In this document: positions 269-16,030 of the stretch, piece after piece
Layout: each line of letters starts with the position of its first letter
Position numbering within the stretch: position 1 is the stretch's first letter
From: Clostridiales bacterium
Lineage (GTDB): Bacteria > Bacillota > Clostridia > Caldicoprobacterales > DTU083
Direction of reading: 5' to 3'
DNA length: 35,792 nucleotides
Assembly (NCBI GenBank): GCA_012839095.1
Contig: DUOA01000076.1
Coordinates: forward strand, 1 to 35,792
Translations under genes and position numbers: made by a program
Notes under the pieces: model-generated
The model's database searches: none
Told to the model about the DNA's origin: nothing
What the model saw: the letters and a program-made list of their open reading frames with translations, nothing else

Positions 269-2053
269 GTGAGTACACAGAGTATTCTGAAAAAAGCTTC
301 TCTGCTTCTGTTGATTCTTGCTGTACTGACATCAGCGCTCATAGGCTGCGCAAAACAGACAACGCCGCCGGCGGACCCTGATCAGAATGGTGAAAAACCG
401 ACTGCTTCACCATCTGAGCAGGAACCTGATCCTGAAGATGATGAAGAACCTGTGGAAATAACCATCTGGGCACCTGCCGGCCGGTATACCCTGGACGATC
501 GTCGTGATGTTGTACCCGTAGAAAATGACGTAGGGCTGTTGGAAGAGAAGTTCAATGTAAAACTCAATTTCACAACAGTTCCATCTGAAGAGGTTCGTGA
601 CCAGGTAGGAATCTTGCTGGCTACAAACTCCATGACGGACATCATGCTGCTGCCGGGATCTTATGACACCTTCCTTGTTCGGCCGGATCAGATGTTTGCA
701 GACGGGCAGATAATCGATTTGAAGAGCATCGAAGCCAACATCCCGGATTATATGCGGATTATCAATGAAAATCCTGTTATGCTTAAAAATGTTATGAATG
801 ATGCAGGCAATATCATGTACTTCGGAGAGCCCTTGTTTGAACAGGAAATCGGTATGTCAGGCGGTCTCATGATACGTAAGGACTGGCTTGATAAATTTGA
901 TTTGCCTCTGCCCCAATCTTTGGATGATTTCATCAATGCTCTCAGGACTTTCCGGGACAATGATCCCAATGGAAACGGTGAAAAGGATGAAGTCCCCTTC
1001 TGTGGAAATGAAGGCTCACTGCAGGTTATAGGCAACCTGACCGGCATTCAGGAGACCTTCTCCATGGTCGGCGGTCCTGCAGGAGAAGTAGTATTCGGCC
1101 CGGCCGAGGTTGAGGCATATAAGAAACGATTGAGACTGATTGCCCTGTTTGCACAGGAAAAACTGATCAATGAAAATTACTACAACTTTGATTTCCAGAT
1201 GCGTGATACCTGGATTGTGGAGGACAGGATCGGTGCAGCCCTTACCGGACTTGGGAACCTGGATAAGTGGAACGGCATGATGAAAGACCATGAAACCTTC
1301 CTCATGTGGCCTATTGACAATCCCGCCATGGAAGACGGAAAGCGCTACTTTGACCGGACCGACATGACAAAGGGCATGAAAGACACAATTACCGTTATCT
1401 CTACAAACGCCGAGCGTCCGGACAAATGCGGAGAACTGATAAATTACTTCTACACTGAAGAAGGTCATATGCTTAATACCTTTGGTGTAGAGGGTATAAC
1501 CTATGTTATGGATGGCACCCTGCCCAAATATACAGAGCTGATTGTAAATAACCCCGACGGATTGACGGTAGGGGACGCACAGGCCAAGTACATCGGCATT
1601 CCGGGAATGCTTACATACAACGATATGCGTGTATGGGCACAACTCTCACTTACCAGTCCTGCCGCCCGTCAGGCCAATATCCATACCTGGACGGATACCT
1701 TTACTATTGAAACAAATACGCCCATACCTCCGGCAATGATGGATCCGGATGATGCTGATGAATATGCTGATATCATGGCAGACCTGCATACCTATATTCT
1801 TGAAAGCGTTGCTAAGTTTACAACCGGTGAATGGGATATTGACGAGAAGTATGATGAATTCCTCAATACCTGCATAAATGAACTGAATGCAGAACGAGCT
1901 CTCGAACTGCTGCGGAAATCTGTTAAGGCATGGCAGGAAAGAGGCGGTGTGCCCTACAAGTATACCTTGAAGAGGGCGGAAATAGACTACTGGGATAAGA
2001 TTCCTTTGGTTACTGAAAAGGGAGTAGAACTTATGGATCCAAACCTCAGGTAA
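269..2053 (+). CDS. Extracellular solute-binding lipoprotein of a carbohydrate ABC importer (LplA/YtcQ type)
   Basis: This 594-residue protein would capture an oligosaccharide outside the membrane and hand it to the two permeases encoded next. A signal peptide (hydrophobic stretch about residues 10-25) ends in the lipobox LIGC, with Cys27 as the predicted lipid-anchored residue. An acidic, proline-rich linker covers about residues 33-62. The rest resembles the long family-1 solute-binding proteins of the LplA/YtcQ group. The start is GTG at 269, preceded by AAGGGAGGAAG at 254-264; the lipobox spacing supports it. It heads the transporter unit and is separated from the permeases by a 15-bp-stem hairpin. 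Proteins of this type often bind plant or host polysaccharide fragments. The neighbouring alpha-mannosidase suggests a mannoside or related sugar, which is inference. Confidence 0.9.
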   Translation: MSTQSILKKASLLLLILAVLTSALIGCAKQTTPPADPDQNGEKPTASPSEQEPDPEDDEEPVEITIWAPAGRYTLDDRRDVVPVENDVGLLEEKFNVKLNFTTVPSEEVRDQVGILLATNSMTDIMLLPGSYDTFLVRPDQMFADGQIIDLKSIEANIPDYMRIINENPVMLKNVMNDAGNIMYFGEPLFEQEIGMSGGLMIRKDWLDKFDLPLPQSLDDFINALRTFRDNDPNGNGEKDEVPFCGNEGSLQVIGNLTGIQETFSMVGGPAGEVVFGPAEVEAYKKRLRLIALFAQEKLINENYYNFDFQMRDTWIVEDRIGAALTGLGNLDKWNGMMKDHETFLMWPIDNPAMEDGKRYFDRTDMTKGMKDTITVISTNAERPDKCGELINYFYTEEGHMLNTFGVEGITYVMDGTLPKYTELIVNNPDGLTVGDAQAKYIGIPGMLTYNDMRVWAQLSLTSPAARQANIHTWTDTFTIETNTPIPPAMMDPDDADEYADIMADLHTYILESVAKFTTGEWDIDEKYDEFLNTCINELNAERALELLRKSVKAWQERGGVPYKYTLKRAEIDYWDKIPLVTEKGVELMDPNLR

Positions 2054-2155: not shown

Positions 2156-3121
2156 ATGGCTCTCTCTAAGCAGACGAAAAAGAACATACAGACAAGAACC
2201 GGAAGCGGGTTCAGCCGGGGCAGTTATCTTAAGCAATACTGGTTTATTTACGGAATTTTTATTCTTGTTATGTCCTACTATGTAATTTTCAAATACATTC
2301 CTATGTACGGAGTAATTATTGCTTTCAAGAAGTACACTCCGACTTTGGGAATATGGGGAAGTAAGTGGATTGGTATTAGGAATTTTGAAAAATTCTTTGG
2401 CAGTATGTTTTTCATGAGAACCTTTCGAAATACTTTGATCATAAGTTTCTTAAACTTGATCTTCGCATTTCCCGCACCTATTATTTTTGCCTTGATGCTG
2501 AATGAACTGCGAAATGAAGCTTTCAAAAGGTCGGTACAAACAATCAGCTACCTGCCGCACTTCATATCCATTGTGGTTGTGGCAGGCATAGCACATGACT
2601 TTCTTAACAAAAATGGCACTATCAGCACTTTACTTAACTCTTTGTTTGGTATGGAGCAGAAAGTTTGGCTGAATGATTCTTCTGCTTACAGGACAATTTA
2701 TATTTTGCTGGACATCTGGAAGGATATGGGCTGGAATGCAATAATATATCTTGCTGCATTATCAGGAATCGATGTTGAATTGTACGATGCGGCTGAAATC
2801 GACGGCTGTGGCACGATACGCAAGATGCTAAATGTCACCATCCCCGGGATAATGCCTACCATTATAGTTTTGCTGATTTTGCGCGTTGGTTCCATTCTCA
2901 GCGTAGGGTCGGAGAAAACTTTGCTGCTTTATAATCCCAACACATATGAGGTCTCTGATATAATTTCAAGCTTTGTATATCGCAGAGGTTTTGGCATAGA
3001 TTCCAGGGCAGATTATTCATTCAGTACCGCTGTTGATCTTTTCAACTCGGTGATAAATCTGATTTTACTGACTTTAGCTAATTTCTTAGCCAGAAGATAC
3101 AGCGAAACCAGCCTATGGTGA
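2156..3121 (+). CDS. Carbohydrate ABC transporter permease (LplB/YteP type)
   Basis: This is one of two membrane subunits forming the sugar channel. The 321-residue protein has a basic N-terminus, a first membrane segment at about residues 26-50 and further hydrophobic segments consistent with six helices. The cytoplasmic coupling loop reads DAAEIDGCG followed by R and, later, IPGIMPT. This is the EAA motif that contacts the ATPase. The ATG at 2156 follows GGAAGGATG at about 2139-2147. It ends 15 bases before the start chosen for the second permease. No ATPase gene is nearby, so a shared MsmX-like ATPase encoded elsewhere probably powers it, as known for the related B. subtilis systems. Substrate is not readable from sequence. 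Confidence 0.92.
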   Translation: MALSKQTKKNIQTRTGSGFSRGSYLKQYWFIYGIFILVMSYYVIFKYIPMYGVIIAFKKYTPTLGIWGSKWIGIRNFEKFFGSMFFMRTFRNTLIISFLNLIFAFPAPIIFALMLNELRNEAFKRSVQTISYLPHFISIVVVAGIAHDFLNKNGTISTLLNSLFGMEQKVWLNDSSAYRTIYILLDIWKDMGWNAIIYLAALSGIDVELYDAAEIDGCGTIRKMLNVTIPGIMPTIIVLLILRVGSILSVGSEKTLLLYNPNTYEVSDIISSFVYRRGFGIDSRADYSFSTAVDLFNSVINLILLTLANFLARRYSETSLW

Positions 3122-3135
3122 CGGGGGGTAAGACA

Positions 3136-4011
3136 ATGAGCAGATATTACAGATCGTCCGGTGAAGTATTGATAAGAATAATAATTGTCCTTGTTATGCT
3201 GTTTGTTTGCGTAACGACCTTGTATCCCTTCTGGTACATTCTGGTGGCATCCTTCAGTGAACCCCTGGAGGTGGTAAGAGCCGGCGGCATGATGCTGTGG
3301 TTAAGAGGATTTAGCTTGTATGCCTACAAGGAAGTATTTGTTCACAGGCTGTTTTTGCGGTCTTATTATAATACCCTGGTATATCTGACCTTCGGTGTGG
3401 CAACCAATATGTTTATGACCACACTTGCTGCATATGCACTGTCCGTCAAGGGGATTAAAGGTGCAGGAGCTGTAATGAAAGTTATTGTTTTCACTATGTT
3501 TTTTGGCGGAGGATTGATACCAACTTATATAGTTGTTGATAGTCTGAATATGGTGGATACCATGTGGTCACAGTTTGTGCCATATGCCATTAACACTTAT
3601 AATATGATTATCCTGAGAACAGCCTTCCGGGGCATACCGGACAGCATAGAGGAAGCTGCCACCATAGACGGGGCTACTCCATTTAAAATTATGACTATGA
3701 TAGTTCTTCCCTTATCCCTGCCGAGCATAATGGTTATAGGACTGTACTATGCCGTTGAGATATGGAATTCATATTTCCGCGCGCTGATATACATTCGTTC
3801 AGACACCAAGTATCCCCTTCAGCTCATATTGCGTCAGGTCCTTCTGTCCAATGCCATGTCTCAGCAGGATATGGCTTTTGTGGATACCAACATTGGACTT
3901 ACGGTAAAATATGCGACAATTATAGTTTCCACAGTACCTATTCTGATGGTCTATCCTTTCATTCAAAAGTATTTTGTAAAAGGCGTAATGATAGGCTCGA
4001 TAAAGGGTTAA
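3136..4011 (+). CDS. Carbohydrate ABC transporter permease (LplC/YtcP type)
   Basis: This is the second membrane subunit of the importer (291 residues), partner of the permease just upstream. It has six predicted hydrophobic segments and a clear EAA coupling motif, EEAATIDGATPFKI, followed by the conserved LPLSLPSI. The C-terminus KGVMIGSIKG is the usual YtcP/LplC ending. The start was set at ATG 3136 because GGGGGG at 3122-3127 lies a good distance upstream. An in-frame ATG at 3115 overlaps the previous gene and lacks a ribosome site. A terminator follows at 4062-4090, so binding protein and both permeases form a three-gene unit without an ATPase. Confidence 0.92.
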   Translation: MSRYYRSSGEVLIRIIIVLVMLFVCVTTLYPFWYILVASFSEPLEVVRAGGMMLWLRGFSLYAYKEVFVHRLFLRSYYNTLVYLTFGVATNMFMTTLAAYALSVKGIKGAGAVMKVIVFTMFFGGGLIPTYIVVDSLNMVDTMWSQFVPYAINTYNMIILRTAFRGIPDSIEEAATIDGATPFKIMTMIVLPLSLPSIMVIGLYYAVEIWNSYFRALIYIRSDTKYPLQLILRQVLLSNAMSQQDMAFVDTNIGLTVKYATIIVSTVPILMVYPFIQKYFVKGVMIGSIKG

Positions 4012-4200: not shown

Positions 4201-4263
4201 AAGAACATCTAACAAAGTCATATCTGTTACTTGTCAAATGTATTCCGGGAAAAGGGGGATACT

Positions 4264-5076
4264 ATGGATAATAACAGCCTTTCAGTTCTGAATGACAATC
4301 AATACTGCGAAGATCTTGACATCAGGGTGTTAAACTTTGAAAAGAAAACTTTGCCGCCTGACTGGTCTCTGGACAGGACCGCCGGCAAAACCTGCATGCT
4401 GACCTATATTCTTGAAGGAAGGGCTGCCTGCTATGTTGAAGGAAAGCCCTATCTTGCAAGCAAGGGCGATTTTGTATTTGTTCCCGACTGCACAGCCTAT
4501 TCAGCCCATGGAGACAGAAAGAAAGAGCTCGCCTGCTATTTGATGGAATTTGAGTATTCCTACAAATCAGGAAGCGGCAGTGAATTACCCCTGCCAACCG
4601 TATTTAATGCAGAATCTGATATTGTACTGAATGATTTATACAAAGAAATGGAGAGGACATGGGAATTTAAAGCAAGAGGTTACCGTTTGATGTCCAGAGC
4701 CATTGCGCTGCAAATCTTTCACGAACTTCTTTTCCGTACATACCGTGCACAAAACACATGCAAACAGAGCAACCGTATCGAAATTATAAAGGAATATGTA
4801 CACAAGCACTACCGTAACAACATACAATTGGAAGATGTGGCTGAAATTCTAAATCTGAATCCCGTATACACCGGCTCTTACTTTAAGAAAAGGACTGGAT
4901 ATTCGATCAAGCAGTATATCAATCATGTTCGAATCAATCAGGCCAAGAATCTCCTGGCTTCGGGAGATTATACCGTTACCGAAGTTGCCCAGATGTGCGG
5001 ATATCATGACATATTTTACTTCAGCAAGGTATTCAAGCAGATTGAAGGAGTCTCACCTTCCTATTTTCAGCAATAA
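4264..5076 (+). CDS. AraC-family transcriptional regulator with N-terminal cupin sensor
   Basis: This 270-residue protein probably senses a sugar and controls the importer and mannosidase genes around it. The N-terminal 130 or so residues look like an AraC-type cupin pocket (YILEGRAACYVEGKPY, KGDFVFVPD). The C-terminal 100 residues hold the two helix-turn-helix units: QLEDVAEILNLNPVYTGSYF and TVTEVAQMCGYHDIFYFSKV, ending VSPSYF. The start is ATG 4264, after AAAGGGGGA at 4250-4258; an in-frame TTG at 4231 lacks a ribosome site. It has its own promoter upstream, and a second promoter drives the downstream mannosidase. The target sites and inducer are unknown. Confidence 0.92.
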   Translation: MDNNSLSVLNDNQYCEDLDIRVLNFEKKTLPPDWSLDRTAGKTCMLTYILEGRAACYVEGKPYLASKGDFVFVPDCTAYSAHGDRKKELACYLMEFEYSYKSGSGSELPLPTVFNAESDIVLNDLYKEMERTWEFKARGYRLMSRAIALQIFHELLFRTYRAQNTCKQSNRIEIIKEYVHKHYRNNIQLEDVAEILNLNPVYTGSYFKKRTGYSIKQYINHVRINQAKNLLASGDYTVTEVAQMCGYHDIFYFSKVFKQIEGVSPSYFQQ

Positions 5077-5121: not shown

Positions 5122-5149
5122 TTGAAATATACAAAATTATGTATATAAT
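5122..5149 (+). promoter_or_regulatory. Sigma-A promoter of the alpha-mannosidase gene
   Basis: TTGAAA at 5122-5127 and TATAAT at 5144-5149 have a 16-base spacer. A second possible -35, TTGACG at 5099-5104, is too far upstream to use this -10. Transcription would start near 5156, which rules out an in-frame ATG at 5139 as the start and supports ATG 5205. Confidence 0.75.
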
Positions 5150-5204
5150 TAGAGTTAATAACAAAATCAAAGTATTTGTTATGTGCTCTGGAAAGGGGAA
5201 CAAT

Positions 5205-8200
5205 ATGGAATTTACATCGGAAAGAGTATTGGAGCGCAAACTGAAGGCCGTAGAGAATGCCATTTACGATGATGTACATGTACTTTCCAAATGGCAGACA
5301 AGGCAGGGCTTTTATGCGTCACCCGGTAAATATACAAGCTTAGGACCATGGGAGGAAATCTCTTTGGGTGATCGATGGACCTGCAGGGACGGCACAACCC
5401 GCTGGTTTAGAACCACAGTAGAAATACCGGAAGCTTTTGCTGGCAAAAATGTTGTGCTGGAACTGGAATTCGGAGGTGAAGCCCTGGTCCGAATCAATGG
5501 CGTAATCATATCAGCCCTGACTTCCTATCTGGACGAAAACGAAGCAACCAGAACCCGGGTTGTGCTTCCCCGCTTTCCATCAGCAGGAGAAAGCTTTGAT
5601 ATTGAAGTGGAAGCCGGTATGAATTATATGGAGTTTGCAAGATTTCGACGTGAAGGCCGCACTTCCATAGACTATCAATTCCGACGAGCCTTGCTTGCTG
5701 TAGTGGATAACGAGATAGAGCAATATTATTTCGATGTAAAAACTGCATATGACGCCATGATGGCTTTGAAGAGCCCTATCGATAAGCTGACTGCCGCCAA
5801 TGTCAGGCTTCCTTTTGAAATTACAAGAATTCTTGAAAGTTTTACGAAGGATACCTATATATATCAGAGGATTCTGGACGCTGTACTGCACTCTCTTACC
5901 AGAGTGGATGCGGATATGGGAAGGGAAGCTTTGGTAGAATCCATTCCTGCTGCGGCAGAAATCCTGAGAAAAAAACTGGCCCAAATACCCCACAATCCTC
6001 ATGCTTTGATCAAATTTGTAGGTCAGGCTCATATAGACACTGCCTGGCTCTGGCCGATTAAGGAAACGGTTCGTAAATGCGGAAAGACAATGGCCAATGT
6101 ATTGGATCTGATGGACAGATATGAGGACTTCATTTTTGCCTTCAGTCAACCTCAGTTGTTTGAATATACAAAGGAGCACTACCCTGAGCTCTATAAAAGA
6201 ATTAAAGAGAAGGTGAAAACGGGTCAGTTTGAGTTGGTCGGCAATACATGGGTGGAGATGGATACAAATGTTCCGTCCGGCGAAAGCCTGGTCCGCCAGT
6301 TGCTATACGGAAGAGCATTTTTCCAGGAAGAGTTCGGAAAGACTTCCCGGGTATTCTGGATGCCTGATGTATTTGGATACAGCTGGGCTCTGCCTCAGAT
6401 TATCAAGCGTTCCGGCATGGATTATTTTTTCACCTCCAAGCTTATAAACAATGATACCAATAACTTCCCTTACTCATTGTTTATGTGGCAGGGGATCGAC
6501 GGAACCCAGATCTTATCCTATGTACAACGCCTGAATTACAATGGCTGGTACAATCCGGAAACCGTTGAGACAATCTATAATCGCTTTGATCAGAAGCATC
6601 TGACTGACGATCTGTTGATGACTTTCGGGTTCGGAGACGGCGGCGGGGGTCCAAACTACCAGATGCTTGAAACAGGCCGCAGGCTGAAGTCCTTTCCGGG
6701 GCTTCAGAGAACGGAGATGAACACTGCTGTTTCCTTCTTCGATGCTGTAAACACATTAAAAGATCAGCTTCCTGTTTGGAATAATGAGATGTACTATGAG
6801 TTCCACAGGGGCACATACACATCCCAGGCCGGTACGAAAAAGAACAACAGAAAGGCAGAACTGAGCATGAGGCAGGCGGAAATGCTGGCGGCTGCCGCCA
6901 GGGACATGTACGGTGCTGATTACCCTTATGAGGATATTCTGGAAGCCTATAAGCTTATTCTGACAAACCAGTTCCATGATATTATACCGGGCTCATCCAT
7001 AAAGGATGTCTATGTAGACTGTGAGAAGGACTACAAGCGTGTTTTTGACATTATCAAAAAGGTTGAAGAAACTGCTGTTAAGCATCTGACCAAACCGGCT
7101 GAAGCGGACAGGGTAATCGTATTTAACAGCCTTTCTTGGGACAGGACCGGTTATGTCAGGGTACCCCTGCCGGAGGGCTGTACCCAGGCGGCAGTTATAA
7201 ATGATCAGGGAGATCCAGTAGCTGCTGTAAGCCGGGACGGGGAAGTGGAATTTGAGGCCTGGGCTCCTGCCTTGGGTGCAGCTTCCTATCGCATAGAAGC
7301 AAAACCTGTGTCTGCTGAAACTAACATTATTGTCGATAGAGACAAAATGGAAAATGATTTTTATAAGATCAGGCTGGATGAAAACGGGAACCTGACCGGC
7401 ATATATGATAAGCGTAATAAATGCGAGGTATTGGAACAGGGGAAAAAATCCAATCTGCTGCAGATATTTGAAGACAAACCTTACTGCGAAACAGCCTGGA
7501 ATATAGACCTTGAATATCAGAACAAATGCTGGGATCTTATAGAGGGAACGGTCGAGGTAATGGAACAATCGGCCATAAAGGGTGTGGTCCGGGTAACGAA
7601 GAAATTCAACCTTTCTACCATCGTACAGGATATTACCATTTACCGTTCCGTACCCAGGATTGATTTCTGCACAAGGGTGGACTGGAAAGAAACAGAAAAG
7701 ATGCTGAAGGCAGGGTTTCATGTCAATGTATTGTCCAGCAAGGCCGTTTACGAAATACAATTCGGTTCCATTGAGCGTCCCACTCATTGGAACACTTCCT
7801 ATGACAAGGCAAAGTTCGAGGTGTGCGGGCACAAATGGGCGGACCTGTCAGAAGGTGGTTATGGTGTCAGCCTATTGAACGACTGCAAGTATGGGTACGA
7901 TATCAAGGATAACTGTATGCGTATCACGCTGCTGCGCTCTCCCGTGGATCCGGATCCGGATGCAGACAAGGGCATTCATGAAATGTGCTATTCCCTATTG
8001 CCTCATGCAGGGGATTTCCGGCAGGGCAGAACGGTACAGGCCGGTTATGAGCTGAATGTTCCGCTTAAGGCGGCTGTAGGCCGAAGCATAGCTGAGGGTG
8101 GTTCTTATGCCAGAATTTCCCGAGATAATGTTATAATCGATACAATTAAATGTGCAGAGGACGGAAGAGGCATTATCATGCGGGTGTATGAATCTGAAGG

Positions 8201-8363
8201 TGTCAGGGGTAAAACCGGCATAAGCCTGGCAACACAGGCCGAAGAAGTGTTTGAGTGCAATCTAATGGAAGAGGACGAGCAGCTTATAAGCCGTAATGCC
8301 AGTTCCTTTGAGTTTTTTATCAGGCCCTACGAGATAAAAACTTTCAGAATCTGCAGATCCTGA
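5205..8363 (+). CDS. Alpha-mannosidase, glycoside hydrolase family 38
   Basis: This 1052-residue protein should hydrolyse terminal alpha-mannosyl (or closely related) linkages. It has no signal peptide, so it acts in the cytoplasm on imported oligosaccharides. An N-terminal accessory region (about 1-265) precedes the GH38 catalytic domain. The metal site GQAHIDTAWLWP has His276 and Asp278, the presumed nucleophile is Asp388 in WMPDVFGYS, and a third metal ligand is His591 in NQFHDIIPGSS. The C-terminal half is the usual GH38 middle and beta-sandwich region. Length is normal for bacterial members. The start is ATG 5205 after GAAAGGGGA at 5191-5199. It follows the AraC gene with its own promoter. 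A heptose or other mannose analogue as substrate is possible given the downstream genes, but that is inference. Confidence 0.95.
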   Translation: MEFTSERVLERKLKAVENAIYDDVHVLSKWQTRQGFYASPGKYTSLGPWEEISLGDRWTCRDGTTRWFRTTVEIPEAFAGKNVVLELEFGGEALVRINGVIISALTSYLDENEATRTRVVLPRFPSAGESFDIEVEAGMNYMEFARFRREGRTSIDYQFRRALLAVVDNEIEQYYFDVKTAYDAMMALKSPIDKLTAANVRLPFEITRILESFTKDTYIYQRILDAVLHSLTRVDADMGREALVESIPAAAEILRKKLAQIPHNPHALIKFVGQAHIDTAWLWPIKETVRKCGKTMANVLDLMDRYEDFIFAFSQPQLFEYTKEHYPELYKRIKEKVKTGQFELVGNTWVEMDTNVPSGESLVRQLLYGRAFFQEEFGKTSRVFWMPDVFGYSWALPQIIKRSGMDYFFTSKLINNDTNNFPYSLFMWQGIDGTQILSYVQRLNYNGWYNPETVETIYNRFDQKHLTDDLLMTFGFGDGGGGPNYQMLETGRRLKSFPGLQRTEMNTAVSFFDAVNTLKDQLPVWNNEMYYEFHRGTYTSQAGTKKNNRKAELSMRQAEMLAAAARDMYGADYPYEDILEAYKLILTNQFHDIIPGSSIKDVYVDCEKDYKRVFDIIKKVEETAVKHLTKPAEADRVIVFNSLSWDRTGYVRVPLPEGCTQAAVINDQGDPVAAVSRDGEVEFEAWAPALGAASYRIEAKPVSAETNIIVDRDKMENDFYKIRLDENGNLTGIYDKRNKCEVLEQGKKSNLLQIFEDKPYCETAWNIDLEYQNKCWDLIEGTVEVMEQSAIKGVVRVTKKFNLSTIVQDITIYRSVPRIDFCTRVDWKETEKMLKAGFHVNVLSSKAVYEIQFGSIERPTHWNTSYDKAKFEVCGHKWADLSEGGYGVSLLNDCKYGYDIKDNCMRITLLRSPVDPDPDADKGIHEMCYSLLPHAGDFRQGRTVQAGYELNVPLKAAVGRSIAEGGSYARISRDNVIIDTIKCAEDGRGIIMRVYESEGVRGKTGISLATQAEEVFECNLMEEDEQLISRNASSFEFFIRPYEIKTFRICRS

Positions 8364-8464: not shown

Positions 8465-8509
8465 ATGTTTAATTCAATATGGAGGGCTCTATGCAGCATA
8501 CTGACATAA
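8465..8509 (+). CDS. Possible 14-codon leader peptide overlapping the kinase start
   Basis: The ATG at 8465 is preceded by GGAGGA at 8451-8456 and opens a short frame, MFNSIWRALCSILT, that stops at 8507-8509. It is in a different frame from the kinase and overlaps its start codon at 8491. It may couple translation or may simply be chance. No function is recognised. Confidence 0.2.
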   Translation: MFNSIWRALCSILT

Positions 8510-9546
8510 TTAAATCCGTCATAAACAGGGAACTGGTACTGGATATTCTGGAAAAAATAAAAACCACCCGCATAGGCATTATAGGGGATGGCTGTCTGGA
8601 CATATACTGGGATGCAGATATGCGCTTAAGTGTGCTGTCCAGGGAAACACCTCACTTTCCCCTGCCGGTGGTCAGGGAGCGGATCTATCCCGGCGCAGGA
8701 GGCAATGTTGCTGCAAACGTCAGAAGCCTGCAGGCCGGCAGCACCTATATTCTTTCCTGTATCGGGAAGGATTGGCGGGGTGAAAGCCTGCTGTCAGTCC
8801 TTGCTGAACTGGGTATTGATACCAGGTTTATGCTGACGGACGACAACTGGATTACTCCGGCTTATTGCAAACCTGTAAGACAAGGATATTCAGATGTAAA
8901 ATACGAGGATCCCAGAATAGATTTTGAAAACCGTACAGCTCTGAGTCTTGACAGGGAGACTGAACTTATTGACAACCTTACCGCCTTGTCCAAAGAGGTG
9001 GATGTGCTGATCGTTTGTGATCAGTTCAATTACGGCGTAATCGGGGAACGGGTACGTACAGCATTGGCGGAACTGGCCGGTCAGGGCAGAATAGTTGTGG
9101 CGGACAGTCGGACCAGAATTGGCTTGTTTCGGAATGTAATTATCAAACCCAATGAATTGGAAGCCCGTATGGCTGTGAACCAGGGAGAAGTTTCTGCCGA
9201 CATGAATTTTGAGGATCTGGCAGAAGCGGCAGTCAGACTGTATGAACGAAACAGTGCTCCTGTTGTCATAACAATGGGCAGCGGAGGCTCTTTGTGGTAT
9301 TCAGGGGAGAAGCTGCACCGGGCGGAAAGCATTCCGGTTGAACCTCCCATTGATATTGTAGGAGCCGGCGATACATTCCTGGCAGCATTTTCATGTGCAT
9401 ACGGAGCAGGATTTTCCGGTCCTGCCTGCATTGCCTTTGCCAATCTGGCTTCTTCAGTAGTGATTCAAAAAATAGGAATGACCGGAACCGCATCCCCGGA
9501 TGAAATAATTGAGGCATCAAATAAATTGCTGTCTGGCAAAGGATGA
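8491..9546 (+). CDS. PfkB-family sugar kinase resembling the heptose-phosphate kinase domain of HldE
   Basis: This 351-residue kinase is closest in pattern to the N-terminal kinase domain of HldE/RfaE, which puts a phosphate on C1 of D-glycero-D-manno-heptose 7-phosphate. Visible features are GDGCLDIYWDAD near the N-terminus, the sugar-binding GAGGNVAANVRSL, KPNELEA before the ATP site, and the PfkB signature IVGAGDTFLAAF with catalytic Asp294. The nucleotidyltransferase half of HldE is absent. The start is ATG 8491 after GGAGGG at 8481-8486; an in-frame ATG at 8479 would overlap that site. It opens a tight gene run, with the next gene 7 bases away. The true substrate could be another sugar or sugar phosphate; only the PfkB fold is certain. 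Confidence 0.8.
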   Translation: MQHTDIIKSVINRELVLDILEKIKTTRIGIIGDGCLDIYWDADMRLSVLSRETPHFPLPVVRERIYPGAGGNVAANVRSLQAGSTYILSCIGKDWRGESLLSVLAELGIDTRFMLTDDNWITPAYCKPVRQGYSDVKYEDPRIDFENRTALSLDRETELIDNLTALSKEVDVLIVCDQFNYGVIGERVRTALAELAGQGRIVVADSRTRIGLFRNVIIKPNELEARMAVNQGEVSADMNFEDLAEAAVRLYERNSAPVVITMGSGGSLWYSGEKLHRAESIPVEPPIDIVGAGDTFLAAFSCAYGAGFSGPACIAFANLASSVVIQKIGMTGTASPDEIIEASNKLLSGKG

Positions 9547-9553
9547 TAGTTAA

Positions 9554-10516
9554 ATGAAACGTTTGGATTTGACACTTACCCGTACTTACTCAGTCAGGGA
9601 GAGACACAATCTGGTAACCATAGAAAACATGGCAAGGCCGGGAGTGGATGATGCAAGGGATTGGCCCGGTCCGGAAATGGATGAGCTGGTGGAGCGAATT
9701 ATTGAAGCCAGGAAAGCTAATAGGCCGGTTGTATTCTTTATGGGTGCGCATGTTATAAAATGCGGTTTATCCCGTTATGTGATTGAGCTTGTTGAAAAAG
9801 GAATCCTGACTCATATAGCCAGCAATGGTGCAGGCAGCATTCACGACTTTGAGCTGGCCTACCTGGGCGGGACTTCCGAGTATGTTCCCGCTGCAATCGA
9901 GGACGGTTCCTTCGGAATGTGGGAGGAAACTGGTGCCTGGATGAACGAGGCGATTCAGCAGGGTTATGCTCTGGCTCTGGGGCAGGGTGAAAGTCTAGCG
10001 CGTTACGTAAGCAGGAACCTGAACCGCTTCCCTTACGCTCAGGACTGCATTTTTTACAGAGCCTGCAAAAGAGGTGTACCTGTTACCTATCATATCACCA
10101 TTGGAACGGATATTATTCATCAGCATCCGTCGGTTAACTTTGCTGCCCTGGGAGCAACCAGCGGGACGGATTTTGCTATTTTTTGCGGCACCATATCAGA
10201 GCTGGAAGGCGGTGTGTTTCTGAATGTCGGTTCCGCTGTGACCGGTGCTGAAGTTTTTCTCAAGGCATTATCCATAGGACGGAACCAGGGCCATACCATC
10301 GAAAAGATTACAACCGCCAATTTTGACATTATACCCCTGGGCGATTACCGGACCAATGTCTCCGACGATCATTTTCATTATTACTACCGCCCGCGCAAGA
10401 ATGTTATTAACAGGCCTACCAGCTTAGGAGGGAAGGGATTTTACATACAGGGAAATCATAAGGATACGATACCCAGCCTGTATCACAAAATAGTAAGTCG
10501 AATGGAGAAAAAATAA
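9554..10516 (+). CDS. Conserved protein of unknown function, faintly deoxyhypusine-synthase-like
   Basis: This 320-residue soluble protein is not confidently recognised. The central part looks like a Rossmann-type sheet: RPVVFFMGAHVIKCGLSRYV, then GILTHIASNGAGSIHDFELA, whose S/T-x-GA-x4-HD pattern recalls the NAD-binding segment of deoxyhypusine synthase. A later segment, GVPVTYHITIGTDIIHQHP, leads into a glycine-rich stretch, GGVFLNVGSAVTGAEVFLKA. The lysine that forms the enzyme intermediate in deoxyhypusine synthase could not be located, so a different reaction is likely. Its stop codon overlaps the start of the HAD gene by one base (TAATG), and it lies between a sugar kinase and a phosphatase. 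That placement suggests an NAD-dependent or binding step on the same sugar phosphate. Function should be treated as unknown. Confidence 0.75.
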   Translation: MKRLDLTLTRTYSVRERHNLVTIENMARPGVDDARDWPGPEMDELVERIIEARKANRPVVFFMGAHVIKCGLSRYVIELVEKGILTHIASNGAGSIHDFELAYLGGTSEYVPAAIEDGSFGMWEETGAWMNEAIQQGYALALGQGESLARYVSRNLNRFPYAQDCIFYRACKRGVPVTYHITIGTDIIHQHPSVNFAALGATSGTDFAIFCGTISELEGGVFLNVGSAVTGAEVFLKALSIGRNQGHTIEKITTANFDIIPLGDYRTNVSDDHFHYYYRPRKNVINRPTSLGGKGFYIQGNHKDTIPSLYHKIVSRMEKK

Positions 10517-11370
10517 TGGCTGACAATAATAGTATAAATGACAGGCAAGAAACAGGCAGGACCCTGCCGGCAGTTGAGATACTAAAAGATATTTCAGATA
10601 AGAGGTCTGCTGTTAAGGCTGTCATTTTTGATTTTGACGGAACAATATCCACTCTGCGTCAGGGGTGGGAAGAGATCATGGAGCCCCTCATGGTAGAAAT
10701 GATTGCAGGGGAAGAAGTGCCGAATCAAAAGCTGGTGGATGAGGTCAGGGAATATATAGATGAATCCACCGGCATTCAAACCATATTTCAGATGCAGTGG
10801 CTGGAAAAGGAAGTAAGGAGACGCGGTTTGAATCCCCGGGTGCACGATGCCTGGTGGTACAAGGATGAGTACAACAGAAGACTGCTTGAGATGGTAAAAG
10901 TCAGGGTTGAAAAGTTGGAGCAGGGGATTAAAGCACCCGAGGATTTTATGATAGCGGGAGCAGAGGCATTCATTGAATGCCTCTGCAGCAAAGGTTTGGA
11001 CTTGTATATAGCCAGCGGGACAGATCATCAGGATGTTGTCCGTGAGGCAGCAGCCTTGGGTCTCAGTAAATACTTCACTCAGATTCAGGGGGCTCCTGAA
11101 CGAAGGGCTGATTGTTCCAAAGAAGCAGTTATCAGACTGCTTATGGAAACCAAGGGGCTGTCGGGAAAAGAACTGCTGGTTATAGGAGACGGAAAGGTGG
11201 AAATCGCTCTGGGCCTTGAGGTAGGTGCTGTTACTCTGGGAGTGGCAGCGGACGAAATCAGGAGACGGGGCTTAGATCCGGTTAAAAGAAATCGGTTGAT
11301 TAAGGCAGGCGCTCATATGATTATCCAGGACTTTTCCGGCAGTGAGGAAGTCCTGAATCTATTGTTTTAA
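10516..11370 (+). CDS. HAD-superfamily phosphatase (type I, capped)
   Basis: This 284-residue hydrolase probably removes phosphate from a small sugar phosphate. Motif I is VIFDFDGTIS with Asp39 as nucleophile and Asp41 as acid/base. A helical cap domain follows motif I. Motif II is the Ser or Thr in YIASGTDHQD. Motif IV is VIGDGKVEIALG, where Glu stands in place of the usual second Asp. It is much longer than GmhB, the heptose-bisphosphate phosphatase, and belongs to a different HAD subgroup, so it is at most a functional analogue. It starts on ATG 10516, overlapping the previous stop, with GGAG at 10504-10507, so the two genes are translationally coupled. About 80 bases separate it from the ROK gene. 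Confidence 0.85.
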   Translation: MADNNSINDRQETGRTLPAVEILKDISDKRSAVKAVIFDFDGTISTLRQGWEEIMEPLMVEMIAGEEVPNQKLVDEVREYIDESTGIQTIFQMQWLEKEVRRRGLNPRVHDAWWYKDEYNRRLLEMVKVRVEKLEQGIKAPEDFMIAGAEAFIECLCSKGLDLYIASGTDHQDVVREAAALGLSKYFTQIQGAPERRADCSKEAVIRLLMETKGLSGKELLVIGDGKVEIALGLEVGAVTLGVAADEIRRRGLDPVKRNRLIKAGAHMIIQDFSGSEEVLNLLF

Positions 11371-11449
11371 TCCCTTGCAAAAAAAGCAAATCAGTTAGAA
11401 TTAAATTAGTAGTCATCAAGCAGAATATGAAAGAATATAGGTGTCTTGA

Positions 11450-12670
11450 ATGCAAAGATTTTTAGGCAACAACTCCAATATTATGAAGCAAAGAAACCGG
11501 GCTCTGATACTTAACATGATTAAGGAGGAAGGCGGCATTTCCCGTGCTGAGCTGTCCAAACGGACGGGCCTCAGCAGGGGAGGCATTACACCGATTATAA
11601 ATGAGCTGCTGGGTATGGAACTCATTGCAGAAACAGGAGTATCCGTAACTGACAGCGGAAGGAGGCCTATTATTCTGGAACTCAATGCCTCAGGCTGTCA
11701 TGCAATTGCGGTAGACTTGACCAGAAAGAAGTTTACGGCGGCCGTTGTGGATTTTACAGGCCGTATTGTTACTCAGGAACAATACTGGTTTGTAGAAAAC
11801 GACACCCTGGATCATATTTTGAAACGTTTGAAGGAGACCATAAATAGCCTGCTGTCTCAATCAAGAGCTAAGAGAATTGCCGGAATCGGGGTGGTTGCTC
11901 CCGGTCCGCTGGATATATACACTGGGGTCATACTTTCACCTCCCAATTTCTGGGGCTGGCTGAATATTCCCATCAAACAGATTCTGGAGGATGAATTCAG
12001 GCTGCCTGTATTCCTGGACAACAATGCTAATGCCTATGCAATGGCAGAGAAGAATTATGGCAGAGGCAGGGAATATCATAACTTTATCTATACAGTAGTG
12101 GACGAAGGCATTGGTGCCGGTATCATTATAGACGATCGGCTTTACAGGGGAAAAGGGGGATTCGGAAGCGAAATCGGGCATATTTCCATCAACATGGAGG
12201 GGCCCAAGTGCGAATGTGGGAATAACGGCTGTGTTGAGGTGTATGCCACAATACCGCAGATTATGCGTCAGGTAAACAATTATGCAGAACTGGGAATACC
12301 CTCTTCTTATTTGACAGAGATACGAAGCCGGCGGCTGCTGAACTGGAATGATATCCTGCACGGCCTTGAGATAGAGGATCCGGTTTGTCTTAATCTTATA
12401 CGTAAAGTAGCAGTTTATCTGGGCAATATCCTTGTTACCCTGATCAATGTTCTGGAACCGGAAGCAGTTTTCATAGGCAGTGACATAGCCGGTGCCGGTG
12501 ATCATATACTTGAGCCGGTTAAGGAATATCTGTACGGCCGTACAGTCACCAAGGATATTCATAAGACTGATTTGTTTTTGTCCAATCTGAAGCATGCTTC
12601 TTTAGTCGGAGGAGCCATGCTGGCCATACAGCACTTTATAGACTCAGGCAGCTATGAATTGTACGAGTAA
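11450..12670 (+). CDS. ROK-family transcriptional regulator (NagC/XylR type)
   Basis: This 406-residue protein combines an N-terminal winged helix with a sugar-kinase-like ROK domain. It probably represses these genes until a sugar or sugar phosphate binds. The DNA-binding part reads GGISRAELSKRTGLSRGGIT (about residues 28-47). In the ROK domain, EIGHISI carries the zinc-ligand His, and CECGNNGCVE gives Cys254, Cys256 and Cys261. The sugar-binding GAGIIIDDRLYRGKGGFGSE is intact. An active ROK kinase is unlikely given the DNA-binding domain. The start is ATG 11450 with a modest AGGTG site at 11439-11443. It lies between the HAD and SIS genes in the same orientation. With the AraC protein it makes two regulators for one sugar region. 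Confidence 0.9.
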   Translation: MQRFLGNNSNIMKQRNRALILNMIKEEGGISRAELSKRTGLSRGGITPIINELLGMELIAETGVSVTDSGRRPIILELNASGCHAIAVDLTRKKFTAAVVDFTGRIVTQEQYWFVENDTLDHILKRLKETINSLLSQSRAKRIAGIGVVAPGPLDIYTGVILSPPNFWGWLNIPIKQILEDEFRLPVFLDNNANAYAMAEKNYGRGREYHNFIYTVVDEGIGAGIIIDDRLYRGKGGFGSEIGHISINMEGPKCECGNNGCVEVYATIPQIMRQVNNYAELGIPSSYLTEIRSRRLLNWNDILHGLEIEDPVCLNLIRKVAVYLGNILVTLINVLEPEAVFIGSDIAGAGDHILEPVKEYLYGRTVTKDIHKTDLFLSNLKHASLVGGAMLAIQHFIDSGSYELYE

Positions 12671-12715
12671 GAAGAAAAAGCTGCCAAATATGACATCTGC
12701 AGGAGGAACAAATAA

Positions 12716-13357
12716 ATGGAAGATATGCTTAAAGAACTTATGGAACGTTACCCGGAACTTGGCAGCACTAAGTCCGAGATTATAAATGCCCGCAATATGG
12801 TTATCAATACGCTGGAAAAGGGCGGAAAGGTATTGCTCTGCGGAAACGGTGGAAGCGCCGCCGACTGCGATCATATTTCAGGTGAACTGCTGAAGGGTTT
12901 TCTCAACAAGCGCCCCCTGACACAGGATGATCTGAATCGTTTCTCTACCATAGAAGGTGGATATGATCTGGCCTGCAAACTGCAATATGGGCTGCCCGCC
13001 ATCCCGCTGCCTGCTTTCAATGCGCTCATATCGGCTTTCAGCAATGACGTGGACGCATCAGCTGTTTATGCTCAATTGGTTATGGCACTGGGCACTCCGG
13101 GAGATCTGCTCGTTTGCTTAACCACATCCGGAAATTCAGTCAACATAATAAATGCTGCCATGACGGCGAAGAACCGTGGTCTTTCAACAATCGGCATGAC
13201 AGGAAGCCATGGCGGGAAGCTTTTATCTCTGGTTGATTGCTGCATCAGGGTTCCCGAAGAAGAAACCTACAAGGTACAGGAACTACATCTTCCAGTCTAT
13301 CATTATATTTGCGCAGCAGTAGAGGCTCATTTTTTCCCACAGGAGCGTACTGACTGA
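12716..13357 (+). CDS. SIS-domain phosphosugar isomerase, GmhA-like
   Basis: This 213-residue protein resembles GmhA, which interconverts sedoheptulose 7-phosphate and D-glycero-D-manno-heptose 7-phosphate. It keeps the phosphate loop LCGNGGSAADCDHISGELLK, including the Glu expected for catalysis, the second phosphate loop LTTSGNSVNIINA, and the C-terminal QELHLPVYHYICAAVE with the catalytic-type His. An unusual insertion between the first helix and the middle strand (about residues 62-95) sets it apart from typical GmhA. The start is ATG 12716 after AGGAGG at 12701-12706. It ends the gene run and is followed by a strong terminator. DiaA-type SIS proteins are an alternative family, but the sugar context and conserved Glu and His favour an isomerase. 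Confidence 0.82.
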   Translation: MEDMLKELMERYPELGSTKSEIINARNMVINTLEKGGKVLLCGNGGSAADCDHISGELLKGFLNKRPLTQDDLNRFSTIEGGYDLACKLQYGLPAIPLPAFNALISAFSNDVDASAVYAQLVMALGTPGDLLVCLTTSGNSVNIINAAMTAKNRGLSTIGMTGSHGGKLLSLVDCCIRVPEEETYKVQELHLPVYHYICAAVEAHFFPQERTD

Positions 13358-13388: not shown

Positions 13389-13429
13389 AAAAAACTGACA
13401 ATTATGCTGCAGTACATTGTCAGTTTTTT
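13389..13429 (+). terminator. Strong rho-independent terminator ending the sugar cluster
   Basis: A perfect 14-bp stem is formed by AAAAAACTGACAAT at 13389-13402 and ATTGTCAGTTTTTT at 13416-13429, with a 13-nt loop. A-runs and T-runs flank both arms, so it could work in both directions. It separates the sugar genes from the housekeeping block. Confidence 0.92.
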
Positions 13430-13430
13430 C

Positions 13431-13459
13431 TTATCATTAATTGCATGGTATGATACAAT
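13431..13459 (+). promoter_or_regulatory. Candidate promoter for cdd-era-yqzL-recO
   Basis: TTATCA at 13431-13436 and TACAAT at 13454-13459 have a 17-base spacer. TGA just before the -10 makes an extended -10. It lies right after the terminator and about 65 bases before the cdd start. Confidence 0.5.
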
Positions 13460-13523: not shown

Positions 13524-13925
13524 ATGAATGACAAAAGAACTCAAATGGATTACAAACAGTTGGTAGATTTGGCGGGAAAAGCAAGGAAGTTCGCCTATGT
13601 ACCCTATTCCGGACTGCATGTGGGGGCTGCTCTTTTATGCAGTGATGGCAGTGTTTATACAGGGGTCAATGTGGAGAATGTCAGCTATGGTGCAACAAAC
13701 TGTGCAGAACGGACCGCTGTATTCAAAGCAGTCTCTGATGGAAAACGGGATTTTTCCGCTATTGCTGTTGTGTCGGATATGGATGACCTTATCTACCCCT
13801 GCGGTATCTGCAGACAGGTTATTGCAGAGTTTAAAATACCGGAAATTGTAGTGGGAGACAGGAAGGGCAGCTACAGGGTGCATAAGCTCAAAGAACTGCT
13901 GCCTCATGCATTTACAGAATTTTGA
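13524..13925 (+). CDS. cdd: Cytidine deaminase
   Basis: This 133-residue enzyme deaminates cytidine and deoxycytidine to uridine and deoxyuridine in pyrimidine salvage. It is the short tetrameric type. Zinc ligands and catalytic residues are Cys60 and Glu62 in TNCAERTAVFKA, and Cys93 and Cys96 in YPCGICRQVI. The substrate-binding NVENVSYG is also intact. The start is ATG 13524, with GGGAAGTGA upstream at 13509-13517; ATG 13545 is a possible alternative. Only 15 bases separate it from era, the common cdd-era order in Firmicutes. Confidence 0.95.
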   Translation: MNDKRTQMDYKQLVDLAGKARKFAYVPYSGLHVGAALLCSDGSVYTGVNVENVSYGATNCAERTAVFKAVSDGKRDFSAIAVVSDMDDLIYPCGICRQVIAEFKIPEIVVGDRKGSYRVHKLKELLPHAFTEF

Positions 13926-13940
13926 TGAGGATGTGATATT

Positions 13941-14843
13941 TTGCCGAAGTTTCGTTCGGGTTTTACAGCCATAATAGGAAGGCCCAATGTTGGTAAGTCC
14001 ACTCTGATGAATACCTTAATCGGAGAGAAAATAGCCATTGTATCCGATAAACCCCAGACCACCCGCAATCGGATTCAAAGCGTACTGACCAGGGAAGAGT
14101 ATCAGATTGTTTTTGTGGATACCCCCGGTATCCATAAGCCAAAGAATAAATTAGGCGAATACATGGTGAAAGCAGCCCGTAATTCCTTGGAGGAAATGGA
14201 AGCTATTCTGTTTGTAGTGGATGCTGCAGACGGCATCGGGCACGGTGACAGAATGATTGCCGAAATGCTAAGGGAAGTGTCATCTCCGGTCATTCTGGCT
14301 GCCAACAAGATGGACATAGCCGATAAGGAAAAAGCCCGCCTGCAGATTCAGGAGCTTGAGGCTGCGTCTAAATTTGATGATGTATTTGAGATATCGGCAC
14401 TTACCGGCACCAATATCCAGGCATTGGAAAGCAGGCTTGCGAGTTATATGCCGGAAGGCCCGAAATACTATCCTGATGATATGATAACCGATCAGCCGGA
14501 AAGGGTAATTTTAGCTGAAATCGTCCGGGAAAAAGCACTGCAGCTTTTAAAGGAAGAGGTTCCCCATGGCATTGGAGTGGACATAGAGGAAATCCGGGAT
14601 CGGACAGACAAAAATCTGACCGAGGTGTCTGCATCAATTATTTGTGAGAAAGCATCCCACAAGGGTATAATTATCGGGAAGGGCGGACGAATGCTGAAAT
14701 CCATTGGAAGCCTGGCAAGGGCGGATATGGAACGTTTCCTGGGCATTCAGGTATATTTGGAGCTTTTTGTAAAAGTACGGAATGACTGGAGAAACAACCC
14801 CATTACCATGAGAAGTCTGGGCTATGACATTCGCGAGTACTAA
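13941..14843 (+). CDS. era: GTPase Era
   Basis: This 300-residue GTPase binds 16S rRNA and aids maturation of the small ribosomal subunit. The GTPase domain shows G1 GRPNVGKST near residue 12, the switch region with QTTRNRIQ, G3 VDTPGIHKP and G4 NKMD. The C-terminal KH domain carries the RNA-binding loop GIIIGKGGRMLKSIG. The start is a TTG at 13941 preceded by GAGGATGTGAT; the resulting N-terminus MPKFRSGFTAIIGRPN fits the family. It sits between cdd and yqzL in what looks like one operon with recO. Nothing unusual is seen. Confidence 0.97.
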   Translation: MPKFRSGFTAIIGRPNVGKSTLMNTLIGEKIAIVSDKPQTTRNRIQSVLTREEYQIVFVDTPGIHKPKNKLGEYMVKAARNSLEEMEAILFVVDAADGIGHGDRMIAEMLREVSSPVILAANKMDIADKEKARLQIQELEAASKFDDVFEISALTGTNIQALESRLASYMPEGPKYYPDDMITDQPERVILAEIVREKALQLLKEEVPHGIGVDIEEIRDRTDKNLTEVSASIICEKASHKGIIIGKGGRMLKSIGSLARADMERFLGIQVYLELFVKVRNDWRNNPITMRSLGYDIREY

Positions 14844-14948
14844 CTGGAAAGCAGCTGCCAAACCGGATGATTTTACATGGAATAGCCCATTTAAGCCCGG
14901 GCAGGCTATAAAAAGAACGCAAAATCCACATTAGAGGAGGCATTTTAA

Positions 14949-15116
14949 TTGTTGCAGTTATTGTGGAATATGTTCAGTAAAACAGGCCAGATAAACACCT
15001 ATGTTTTATATAAAGAGATGGAAAATGTAAAACGGGAGAATGACGTCAGGCTTGCTTCCGGTGAACTCTCAAAGGAGGGACTCCAGGATTCGCCGTCACT
15101 TGATAAGGAGCTATAG
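14949..15116 (+). CDS. yqzL: YqzL-family small protein
   Basis: A 55-residue reading frame begins at TTG 14949, with GAGGAGG at 14934-14940, and ends at TAG 15114-15116. Its N-terminus, LLWNMFSKTGQINTYVLYKE, closely follows B. subtilis YqzL, which begins with a W-N-x-F-S-x-T-G-x-x-x-T-Y pattern. The position between era and recO is also that of YqzL in Bacillus. The C-terminal half is charged and poorly conserved. The family's function is not known to me. A second in-frame TTG at 14952 is possible but less well spaced from the ribosome site. Confidence 0.85.
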   Translation: MLQLLWNMFSKTGQINTYVLYKEMENVKRENDVRLASGELSKEGLQDSPSLDKEL

Positions 15117-15214
15117 TCATAGCGAAGAGAGGCATCATGCTTAACCGGCAGTCCGCTTATCTGATAAATCAATGTTTGCAAACAGAGAGATGAACTTGAA
15201 AAGAAGGTAACAAA

Positions 15215-15877
15215 ATGAGTTTGGTGCGCCTACAGGGGGTTGTGCTGAGGTACAGAAACCGCGGCGAGGCAGATCGTCTCCTGACAATACTGACCCCTGA
15301 TCTTGGAAAAATACTGGTACTGGCCAGAGGCTGCAGAAGGCAGAAAAGCAGGTTTCTGGCTTTTTGTCAGTTGTTCTGCTATGGTGAGCTTATCCTGCAG
15401 CCATACAGAGACATCTTTATCCTGAATCAGGCAGAGGTTAAGAATTCCTACTTTGACATACGTAACGATATGGACAAGCTGTCCTGTGCAACCTATATAG
15501 CAAACCTGACAGAGGCTGTTGCAACAACGGGTGAGAACAATGCCCGTCTTTTTAAGTTAATTCTGCACAGCCTGTCCTATATTTCCTACAGCGATCGGCA
15601 TCCGCTGGAGCTGGCCCTGATCTATGAACTGAAACTGCTTGAGCAAATTGGCTATAAGCCCTTTCTTGCGAATGGCCGGTTCAACGGCGAAATTCCCGTC
15701 AGCTCCGATGCAGCCGAAACAATACATACGATACTGAATTCCTCAACGGAACAGGCTCAGAGAACCCCTATAACTCCAGGGGCCAGGCAGGAGCTGAACA
15801 GGTTGCTGTCCCGGTATATTAAGCAGAAATTGGATCTCCAAATCAAATCCCGTATGTTTCTTGATATGATACCTTGA
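15215..15877 (+). CDS. recO: DNA repair protein RecO, shortened form lacking the zinc module
   Basis: RecO loads RecA onto single-stranded DNA together with RecR in the RecFOR pathway. This version has 220 residues, against about 240-255 usual. The N-terminal OB-fold is recognisable: LQGVVLRYRNRGEADRLLTI and ARGCRRQKSRFLAF, then QPYRDIFILNQAEV. The helical domain follows (NLTEAVATTGENN, ALIYELKLLEQIGYKPFL). After GYKP most RecO proteins have a four-cysteine zinc module. Here that stretch is replaced by a short segment, LANGRFNGEIPVSSDAAETI, with no cysteines. The start is ATG 15215 after AAGAAGG. It ends the era operon. Confidence 0.9.
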   Translation: MSLVRLQGVVLRYRNRGEADRLLTILTPDLGKILVLARGCRRQKSRFLAFCQLFCYGELILQPYRDIFILNQAEVKNSYFDIRNDMDKLSCATYIANLTEAVATTGENNARLFKLILHSLSYISYSDRHPLELALIYELKLLEQIGYKPFLANGRFNGEIPVSSDAAETIHTILNSSTEQAQRTPITPGARQELNRLLSRYIKQKLDLQIKSRMFLDMIP

Positions 15878-15912
15878 CCTGTATTTGAAAATTCTATATT
15901 ATATAGGGTGGA

Positions 15913-15939
15913 CTGACAAAATAACAAATATTTCATAAT
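15913..15939 (+). promoter_or_regulatory. Weak promoter candidate upstream of ppdK
   Basis: CTGACA at 15913-15918 and CATAAT at 15934-15939 have a 15-base spacer within the 153-base gap between recO and ppdK. No clear recO terminator was seen, so read-through is also possible. Confidence 0.3.
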
Positions 15940-16030
15940 GATCTTGTCATTGGAAAAGCTACTGAAAGAGTATATCTTTTTAGTCTGCATATTACAACAG
16001 AAAACATAGTAAAAACAAGGAGGAAAACTT

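Follow-up and report, generated by a model that had tools for sequence, protein, structure and literature searches.

A conserved four-enzyme cassette centred on the GSU2086 family and its importer-linked setting in a Clostridiales genome

Why would a Gram-positive genome carry enzymes resembling those of the ADP-heptose route directly behind a sugar importer and a mannosidase? The locus that raises this question lies at 8491-13357 of contig DUOA01000076.1 (Clostridiales bacterium, assembly GCA_012839095.1), a 35,792-nucleotide stretch that we call the window and that is contig C12 of a 2.74-Mb, 169-contig draft genome (96% complete). As a first-pass annotation made from the bare sequence had proposed, the genes form one run: five intact plus-strand open reading frames encode an HldE-like kinase, a GSU2086-family protein, a HAD phosphatase, a ROK regulator and a GmhA-like SIS isomerase, in that order, with spacings of 7 bases, a 1-base overlap, 79 bases and 45 bases and a GGAGG ribosome-binding site immediately 5' of the kinase start at 8491. 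The notable point is the conserved, uncharacterized GSU2086 module itself. Here we document its gene set, conservation and gene fusions, the fold of its central protein, its intact catalytic motifs and its importer and glycosidase contexts, and we weigh what the module may do.

The GSU2086 protein is the constant member of a conserved cassette

The protein that the first-pass annotation had listed as unknown turned out to belong to a named family with a recognizable fold and to be the constant member of the module. It matches NCBIfam NF052581 (GSU2086 family) over its full length, at 394.2 bits against a cut-off of 250. This family already had a name, without a stated function; its fold and two genomic flavours were worked out in this analysis. 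Our literature search on it returned just a transposon table (PMC5585712), and phage records gave no match. Among near relatives, 17 of 99 have a family gene above the cut-off; the figures are 23 of 391 genomes for the class, 8 of 398 for the phylum and 13 of 145 for a verrucomicrobial sample.

Across 54 GSU2086 loci, a kinase gene lies within 4 kb at 41, a HAD gene at 38, a SIS gene at 19 and a ROK gene at 13, and kinase and HAD are both present at 23 of the 29 loci with full flanks. Twelve gene fusions of HAD, isomerase and GSU2086 occur in Bacillota, Verrucomicrobiota and Kiritimatiellota: HAD-GSU2086 in the latter two phyla, the reverse order GSU2086-HAD in L005, SIS-HAD in L064, L065 and L101, and GSU2086-SIS in L100. 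This conserved neighbourhood, together with the fusions, is strong evidence that the kinase, the GSU2086 protein, the HAD enzyme and the SIS enzyme belong to one pathway. The four-enzyme cassette is conserved across several bacterial phyla, with the GSU2086 protein as its centre.

In a quick tree, GSU2086 proteins fell into two well-supported clades, one comprising the window, most Bacillota and the Verrucomicrobiota fusions and the other the Rbs/Gfo cassettes, family f42, Chloroflexota and Solidesulfovibrio. Family f42 has features of its own. A cassette of the other clade sits beside cdd-era at L059, L061 and L109, as the window cassette does (13524-18682), whether by shared location or by chance. 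At L062 (11701-13961), L059, L061, L107 and L110 the genes after the cassette recurrently encode a carbon-nitrogen hydrolase and a ~491-residue GHL10-like protein. A second GSU2086 copy, at L063, L068, L106, L108, L060 and L067, has no kinase, HAD or SIS gene with it; its neighbours are an AXE1 esterase and a GH42-like protein, frequently joined by an FAD oxidoreductase. Diverged verrucomicrobial GSU2086 proteins (L145-L149 and L151-L153; 370-400 residues, one of 608) carry an insertion and mostly have no kinase or SIS nearby.

The GSU2086 protein adopts the deoxyhypusine synthase/ornithine cyclodeaminase fold in its predicted structure

The fold search covered the GSU2086 protein alone among the cassette proteins. 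Its AF2 model, built from a 50-sequence alignment (mean pLDDT 93, pTM 0.92), was placed by Foldseek in the deoxyhypusine synthase/ornithine cyclodeaminase superfamily (E 4.7e-8, probability 1.00). VIA-align superposed it on AgrE and Pyrococcus deoxyhypusine synthase with a top Z of 20.2, aligning 220-246 residues at a root-mean-square deviation of 3.0-3.4 and 12-14% identity. The likeness spans residues 35-320, with 10-16% identity to deoxyhypusine synthase and the ornithine cyclodeaminases, and the relatives comprise deoxyhypusine synthase, the C-terminal ornithine cyclodeaminase domain of AgrE and ArgZ and the LOR/SDH protein 3c2q. Sequence profiles agree weakly with this placement over the first half of the protein, where the motif N...(I/V)HD.E is shared with deoxyhypusine synthase and TIGR00300 proteins.

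Neither of those two enzyme identities fits the window protein, which scores 13.5 bits with the Pfam DS profile (cut-off 27) and has no TIGR00300 among its NCBIfam matches; true TIGR00300 members score only 34-41 bits against GSU2086, across about 70 residues. GSU2086 proteins differ from both families in that the sequence match is confined to ~65 residues, spermidine or ornithine context is absent and the neighbours act on sugar phosphates. Weak NF052581 matches of ~420 residues are found in many Bacillota (L076-L097); the two that were checked (L076 and L095) are TIGR00300 ornithine cyclodeaminases and not cassette members.

Relatives in this superfamily perform redox-neutral hydride transfers. 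Structure titles record NAD complexes for AgrE and deoxyhypusine synthase, and the NCBIfam entry now calls TIGR00300 nickel-pincer-nucleotide-dependent, a cofactor used by hydroxyacid racemases and D-gluconate epimerases (PMC7583248). We infer that the GSU2086 protein may be a sugar-phosphate epimerase or a similar enzyme.

The kinase, isomerase and phosphatase look like distinct subfamilies

The pathway homologues of the isomerase and kinase, GmhA and HldA, use phosphates of manno-heptose as substrates. The best profile for the cassette kinase is the HldE kinase domain TIGR02198, at 139.9 bits against 77 bits for ribokinase as runner-up and a curated HldE cut-off of 345; that for the SIS protein is GmhA, at ~140 bits in a match divided by an insertion, with a curated cut-off of 209. 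The HAD protein is most like phosphoglycolate phosphatase (Gph). It was tried as GmhB and rejected, TIGR00213 giving no match to it and none at E 0.01 anywhere in the window genome, in agreement with the first-pass view that it is not of the GmhB type.

Active sites were compared with E. coli K-12 sequences, with cassette kinase residues counted from 8479. All 38 cassette kinases retain the HldE R.D motif and GAGD; at HldE K106, R108, P178 and K179 they carry Y, K, S and R, and they share invariant residues of their own (Y129, K131, P132, E143, S210 and R211). The HAD catalytic residues D39, D41, S167-T169, K202 and D225 are invariant among 28 relatives. The window SIS protein retains all four zinc ligands of gonococcal GmhA (H61, E65, Q175 and H183; PMC5387315). 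Lys replaces E. coli GmhA Gly68 in 20 of 20 cassette SIS proteins and Arg69 occurs in none of the 20; proteins of the window type have a ~20-residue insertion adjoining this site, and in a second subtype Asp and Glu replace the Glu and Gln zinc ligands. Because catalytic motifs are kept alongside these signatures, the three proteins look, by sequence, like active enzymes of distinct subfamilies rather than standard HldE or GmhA.

The cassette thus invites comparison with the GmhA-HldE-GmhB route to ADP-heptose of E. coli, and with hldE-GSU2086-gmhA of Geobacter. It shares with them an HldA-type PfkB kinase, a GmhA-type SIS protein and a HAD enzyme, and the window proteins keep the R.D motif and the zinc ligands. 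In contrast to that route, it has no adenylyltransferase, its HAD enzyme is Gph-like, it includes the extra GSU2086 enzyme and it sits in an importer and glycosidase context; its kinase has YxKP and DSR at the HldE residue sites, and its SIS proteins have the Gly68 and Arg69 differences described above.

Importers and glycosidases accompany the cassette

Importers and glycosidases recur beside the cassette in unrelated Bacillota, in Chloroflexota and in Kiritimatiellae. Lpl importers adjoin it in the window, L064 and L066, and Rbs-type monosaccharide importers adjoin it in L010, L065, L098, L101 and the Chloroflexota plasmid locus L127. Gfo/Idh/MocA dehydrogenases are found in L065, L101 and L127, an IolE-like protein in L101 and L127 and DeoC in L127. 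In their dehydrogenase, IolE-like protein, Rbs-type importer and PfkB kinase, L101 and L127 resemble myo-inositol iol operons (IolG, IolE and IolC), but their IolG and IolE scores are far below cut-off, the kinase is HldA-like rather than IolC and the window has none of these genes. An inositol-monophosphatase-type enzyme was sought in the window genome, and none was found.

The first-pass annotation had the cassette follow an Lpl-type importer and a cytoplasmic GH38 (glycoside hydrolase family 38) enzyme. Both are upstream, with an AraC gene (4231-5076) separating importer from GH38. The further expectation that the gene set always travels with these two did not hold, as GH38 lies near 9 of the 54 loci, besides the window, and five loci have Rbs-type importers instead; GH38 and the Lpl importer are lineage-specific, optional partners. 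The window GH38 protein has four Pfam domains above cut-off (N-terminal, middle and C-terminal regions) and the nucleophile and metal motifs HIDTAW and WMPDVFG, and it resembles fungal Ams1. The window genome (G000, 2.7 Mb) contains six GH38 genes, and GH38 is common in cassette genomes generally (34 of 39).

GH38 lies near the cassette in 9 of 39 genomes against ~1.1 expected by chance. The Kiritimatiellae-type cassettes L009 and L016 are immediate neighbours of GH2 enzymes that have beta-mannosidases as their closest named relatives. Because alpha- and beta-mannosidases adjoin relatives of manno-heptose enzymes, these contexts suggest that the cassette sugar may be manno-configured. The window genome encodes its own ManA, above cut-off, so the SIS enzyme is not required for plain mannose, and a role for the latter as sole mannose-6-phosphate isomerase is disfavoured.

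Features of the window

The coordinates of the locus are collected in Table 1. Pfam and NCBIfam scans gave no match for the lipoprotein. The hairpin at 13397-13434 is absent from the output of an automated terminator scan with a loop limit of 8, and genes resembling cdd, era, recO and ppdK lie 3' of it.

Table 1. Annotated features of the importer, GH38 and cassette region of the window
Feature	Coordinates	Strand	Basis
Lipoprotein, probable solute-binding protein of Lpl-type sugar importer	269..2053	+	Lipobox LIGC in translation; 1122-bit profile relative adjoins Lpl permeases in L066
ABC importer permease 1, Lpl type	2156..3121	+	PF00528, 52.8 bits
ABC importer permease 2, Lpl type	3115..4011	+	PF00528 slightly under cut-off; GlcU/MalG-like in NCBIfam
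AraC-family regulator with cupin domain	4231..5076	+	HTH_18 69.9 bits; Cupin_2
GH38 alpha-mannosidase, Ams1-like, no obvious secretion signal	5139..8363	+	Four GH38 Pfam domains; Ams1 structure matches E 1e-144 to 1e-152
HldA-like PfkB kinase, separate subfamily	8491..9546	+	TIGR02198 139.9 bits; cassette-specific invariant residues
GSU2086-family enzyme, deoxyhypusine synthase/ornithine cyclodeaminase fold	9554..10516	+	NF052581 394 bits; AF2 model; structure alignment
HAD phosphatase, Gph-like, not GmhB	10516..11370	+	PF00702 53.4 bits; invariant catalytic motifs
ROK-family transcriptional regulator	11450..12670	+	PF00480 183.5 bits and winged HTH; Mlc/NagC-like in NCBIfam
GmhA-like SIS isomerase, insertion beside active site	12716..13357	+	gmhA ~140 bits in two pieces; H, E, Q, H zinc ligands kept
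Probable terminator ending cassette	13397..13434	+	Inverted repeat ACTGACAATT..., then T-run; read by eye

Discussion

Our best explanation, which we judge about as probable as its negation, is that the window carries an importer-linked flavour of the GSU2086 module, in which an imported oligosaccharide is trimmed by GH38 and a manno-configured sugar is processed by four enzymes into central metabolism. The Lpl-type ABC system would bring in the oligosaccharide, and the GH38 enzyme would trim it inside the cell, releasing a manno-configured sugar or its phosphate. The SIS enzyme could interconvert the aldose phosphate and its ketose, as in GmhA chemistry; the HldA-like kinase would phosphorylate the sugar or sugar phosphate; the GSU2086 protein could catalyse a redox-neutral hydride transfer, for example an epimerization, with a nicotinamide-derived cofactor; and the HAD enzyme would take off one phosphate. 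The product would then enter central metabolism, with the AraC and ROK proteins presumably switching the operon according to sugar supply. We infer the manno configuration, the catabolic direction and every one of these reactions; a heptose is a possible but not a necessary identity for the sugar.

Several observations weigh against this reading. A SIS gene is missing from many GSU2086 loci, and in some genomes GSU2086 stands beside GT2 and YfhO genes (L055 and L058) or unrelated genes. The GH38 enrichment near the cassette comes mostly from one order, and by lineage it falls to ~4 against 1.1 (P 0.03). A kinase paired with a phosphatase is a signature of sugar 1-phosphate making, which suits synthesis better than catabolism. 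Finally, a second, glycan-synthesis flavour of the module, at L126 and L144, is plainly synthetic.

Those two loci lend weight to biosynthesis, an alternative that we hold to be unlikely: the cassette would convert sedoheptulose 7-phosphate into manno-heptose 1-phosphate, or a related 1-phosphate, destined for a surface glycan or a metabolite, with a GDP- or CDP-type nucleotidyltransferase encoded elsewhere and the importer and GH38 as chance or regulatory neighbours. The enzyme logic is that of GmhA-HldA-GmhB. In Solidesulfovibrio (L126), a nucleotidyltransferase-kinase fusion, GSU2086 and SIS lie inside a pseudaminate-type glycan cluster, and verrucomicrobial L144 has in one run a GmhB-like HAD protein, SIS, a PMT-like transferase, a nucleotidyltransferase-kinase fusion and GSU2086. 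Both fusions (L126:10447-11976, on Solidesulfovibrio carbinolicus plasmid pDCAR1, and L144:7785-9308) place the adenylyltransferase domain ahead of the kinase domain, opposite to the arrangement in E. coli HldE, and the kinase half of the former looks degenerate. The Solidesulfovibrio GSU2086 protein nests among importer-linked sequences, which suggests reuse of the module in both roles; this protein has a long branch, and its placement is therefore unsure.

Geobacter points the same way. Its hldE, GSU2086 and gmhA genes are adjacent by locus tag, and transposon hits in them give similar electrode-growth defects (log2 -3.1, -3.2 and -3.7) that fall among those of surface-sugar genes (PMC5585712). 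From this similarity, which also counts for the importer-linked explanation, GSU2086 would share a pathway with a kinase and an isomerase annotated as HldE and GmhA types. Polar effects could partly account for the defects, which tempers what they say for that explanation.

Against biosynthesis stands the missing nucleotidyltransferase, a first-pass observation that extends to the whole window genome: in this 96%-complete draft, the best match to an HldE/HldC-type heptose 1-phosphate adenylyltransferase is 13.3 bits against a cut-off of 181.5, and a search for a second GmhA found none. No HldE-type adenylyltransferase exceeds the cut-off in any of the 41 cassette genomes, and 32 of them have none at E 1e-8, in a search that did not extend to GDP-type transferases. 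Four cassette genomes, including G001, whose cassette is accompanied by GH38, do encode a near-cut-off HldC-like protein (170-177 bits) on a contig other than the cassette's, which counts for biosynthesis. The window operon has no glycosyltransferases, and in Bacillota and Chloroflexota the cassette is recurrently linked with importers, dehydrogenases and glycosidases. The earlier expectation that heptose transferases would not accompany the gene set applies to importer-linked cassettes, none of which has an HldE-type adenylyltransferase beside it, and breaks down for the separate flavour with its nucleotidyltransferase in glycan-synthesis loci. For the window, salvage has the better support, at roughly even odds; the importer and glycosidase context favours the catabolic direction that the first-pass annotation had suggested, whereas its heptose component fares less well, with kinase and isomerase below the HldE and GmhA cut-offs.

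A special case of the importer-linked explanation, and one we find improbable, is salvage of lipopolysaccharide (LPS)-type manno-heptose, in which GH38 would act as an alpha-heptosidase on imported oligosaccharides, GSU2086 would convert the L-glycero to the D-glycero form and GmhA chemistry in reverse would lead to sedoheptulose 7-phosphate and the pentose-phosphate pool. The kinase and isomerase are nearest to heptose enzymes, the GSU2086 fold suits a hydride-transfer epimerization, and GH38 reads the alpha-manno configuration, which is that of the LPS heptose ring. However, both enzymes fall well short of the heptose cut-offs and depart from the heptose enzymes at invariant positions, and the pairing of kinase and phosphatase is left unexplained. 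We know of no GH38 heptosidase; our literature search found none and yielded nothing useful on heptosidases or heptose catabolism more widely. Plain mannoside catabolism, in which the four genes behind GH38 would be unrelated to its function, is very improbable. It has a precedent in the N-glycan locus of Streptococcus pneumoniae (GH38, ROK and NgtS-P1-P2), which combines an imported mannoside, cytoplasmic GH38, ROK and an ABC importer (PMC5215778) and has no kinase/GSU2086/HAD/SIS cassette. Against it, the four genes stay together in most genomes with no GH38 beside them and are fused in several combinations, and the window genome has its separate ManA.

Extending the importer-linked explanation, we offer as a speculative proposal, doubtful on present evidence, that GSU2086 could represent a new class of sugar-phosphate epimerase or isomerase on the deoxyhypusine synthase/ornithine cyclodeaminase fold, with NAD or the nickel-pincer nucleotide as its cofactor. 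The cassette would then give anaerobes a hitherto undescribed means of importing and catabolizing a rare manno-configured sugar, which might be manno-heptose from dead Gram-negative cells.

Overall, this analysis provides the GSU2086 family with a fold, constant partner enzymes, two biological settings and a likely chemistry, in which a sugar phosphate would undergo redox-neutral hydride transfer, and it thereby makes the family directly assayable. Heptose metabolites are immune signals, which gives weight to the correct annotation of hldE and gmhA. Such annotations in Gram-positive genomes, and perhaps in the Geobacter operon too, may denote a sugar pathway other than that of LPS heptose.

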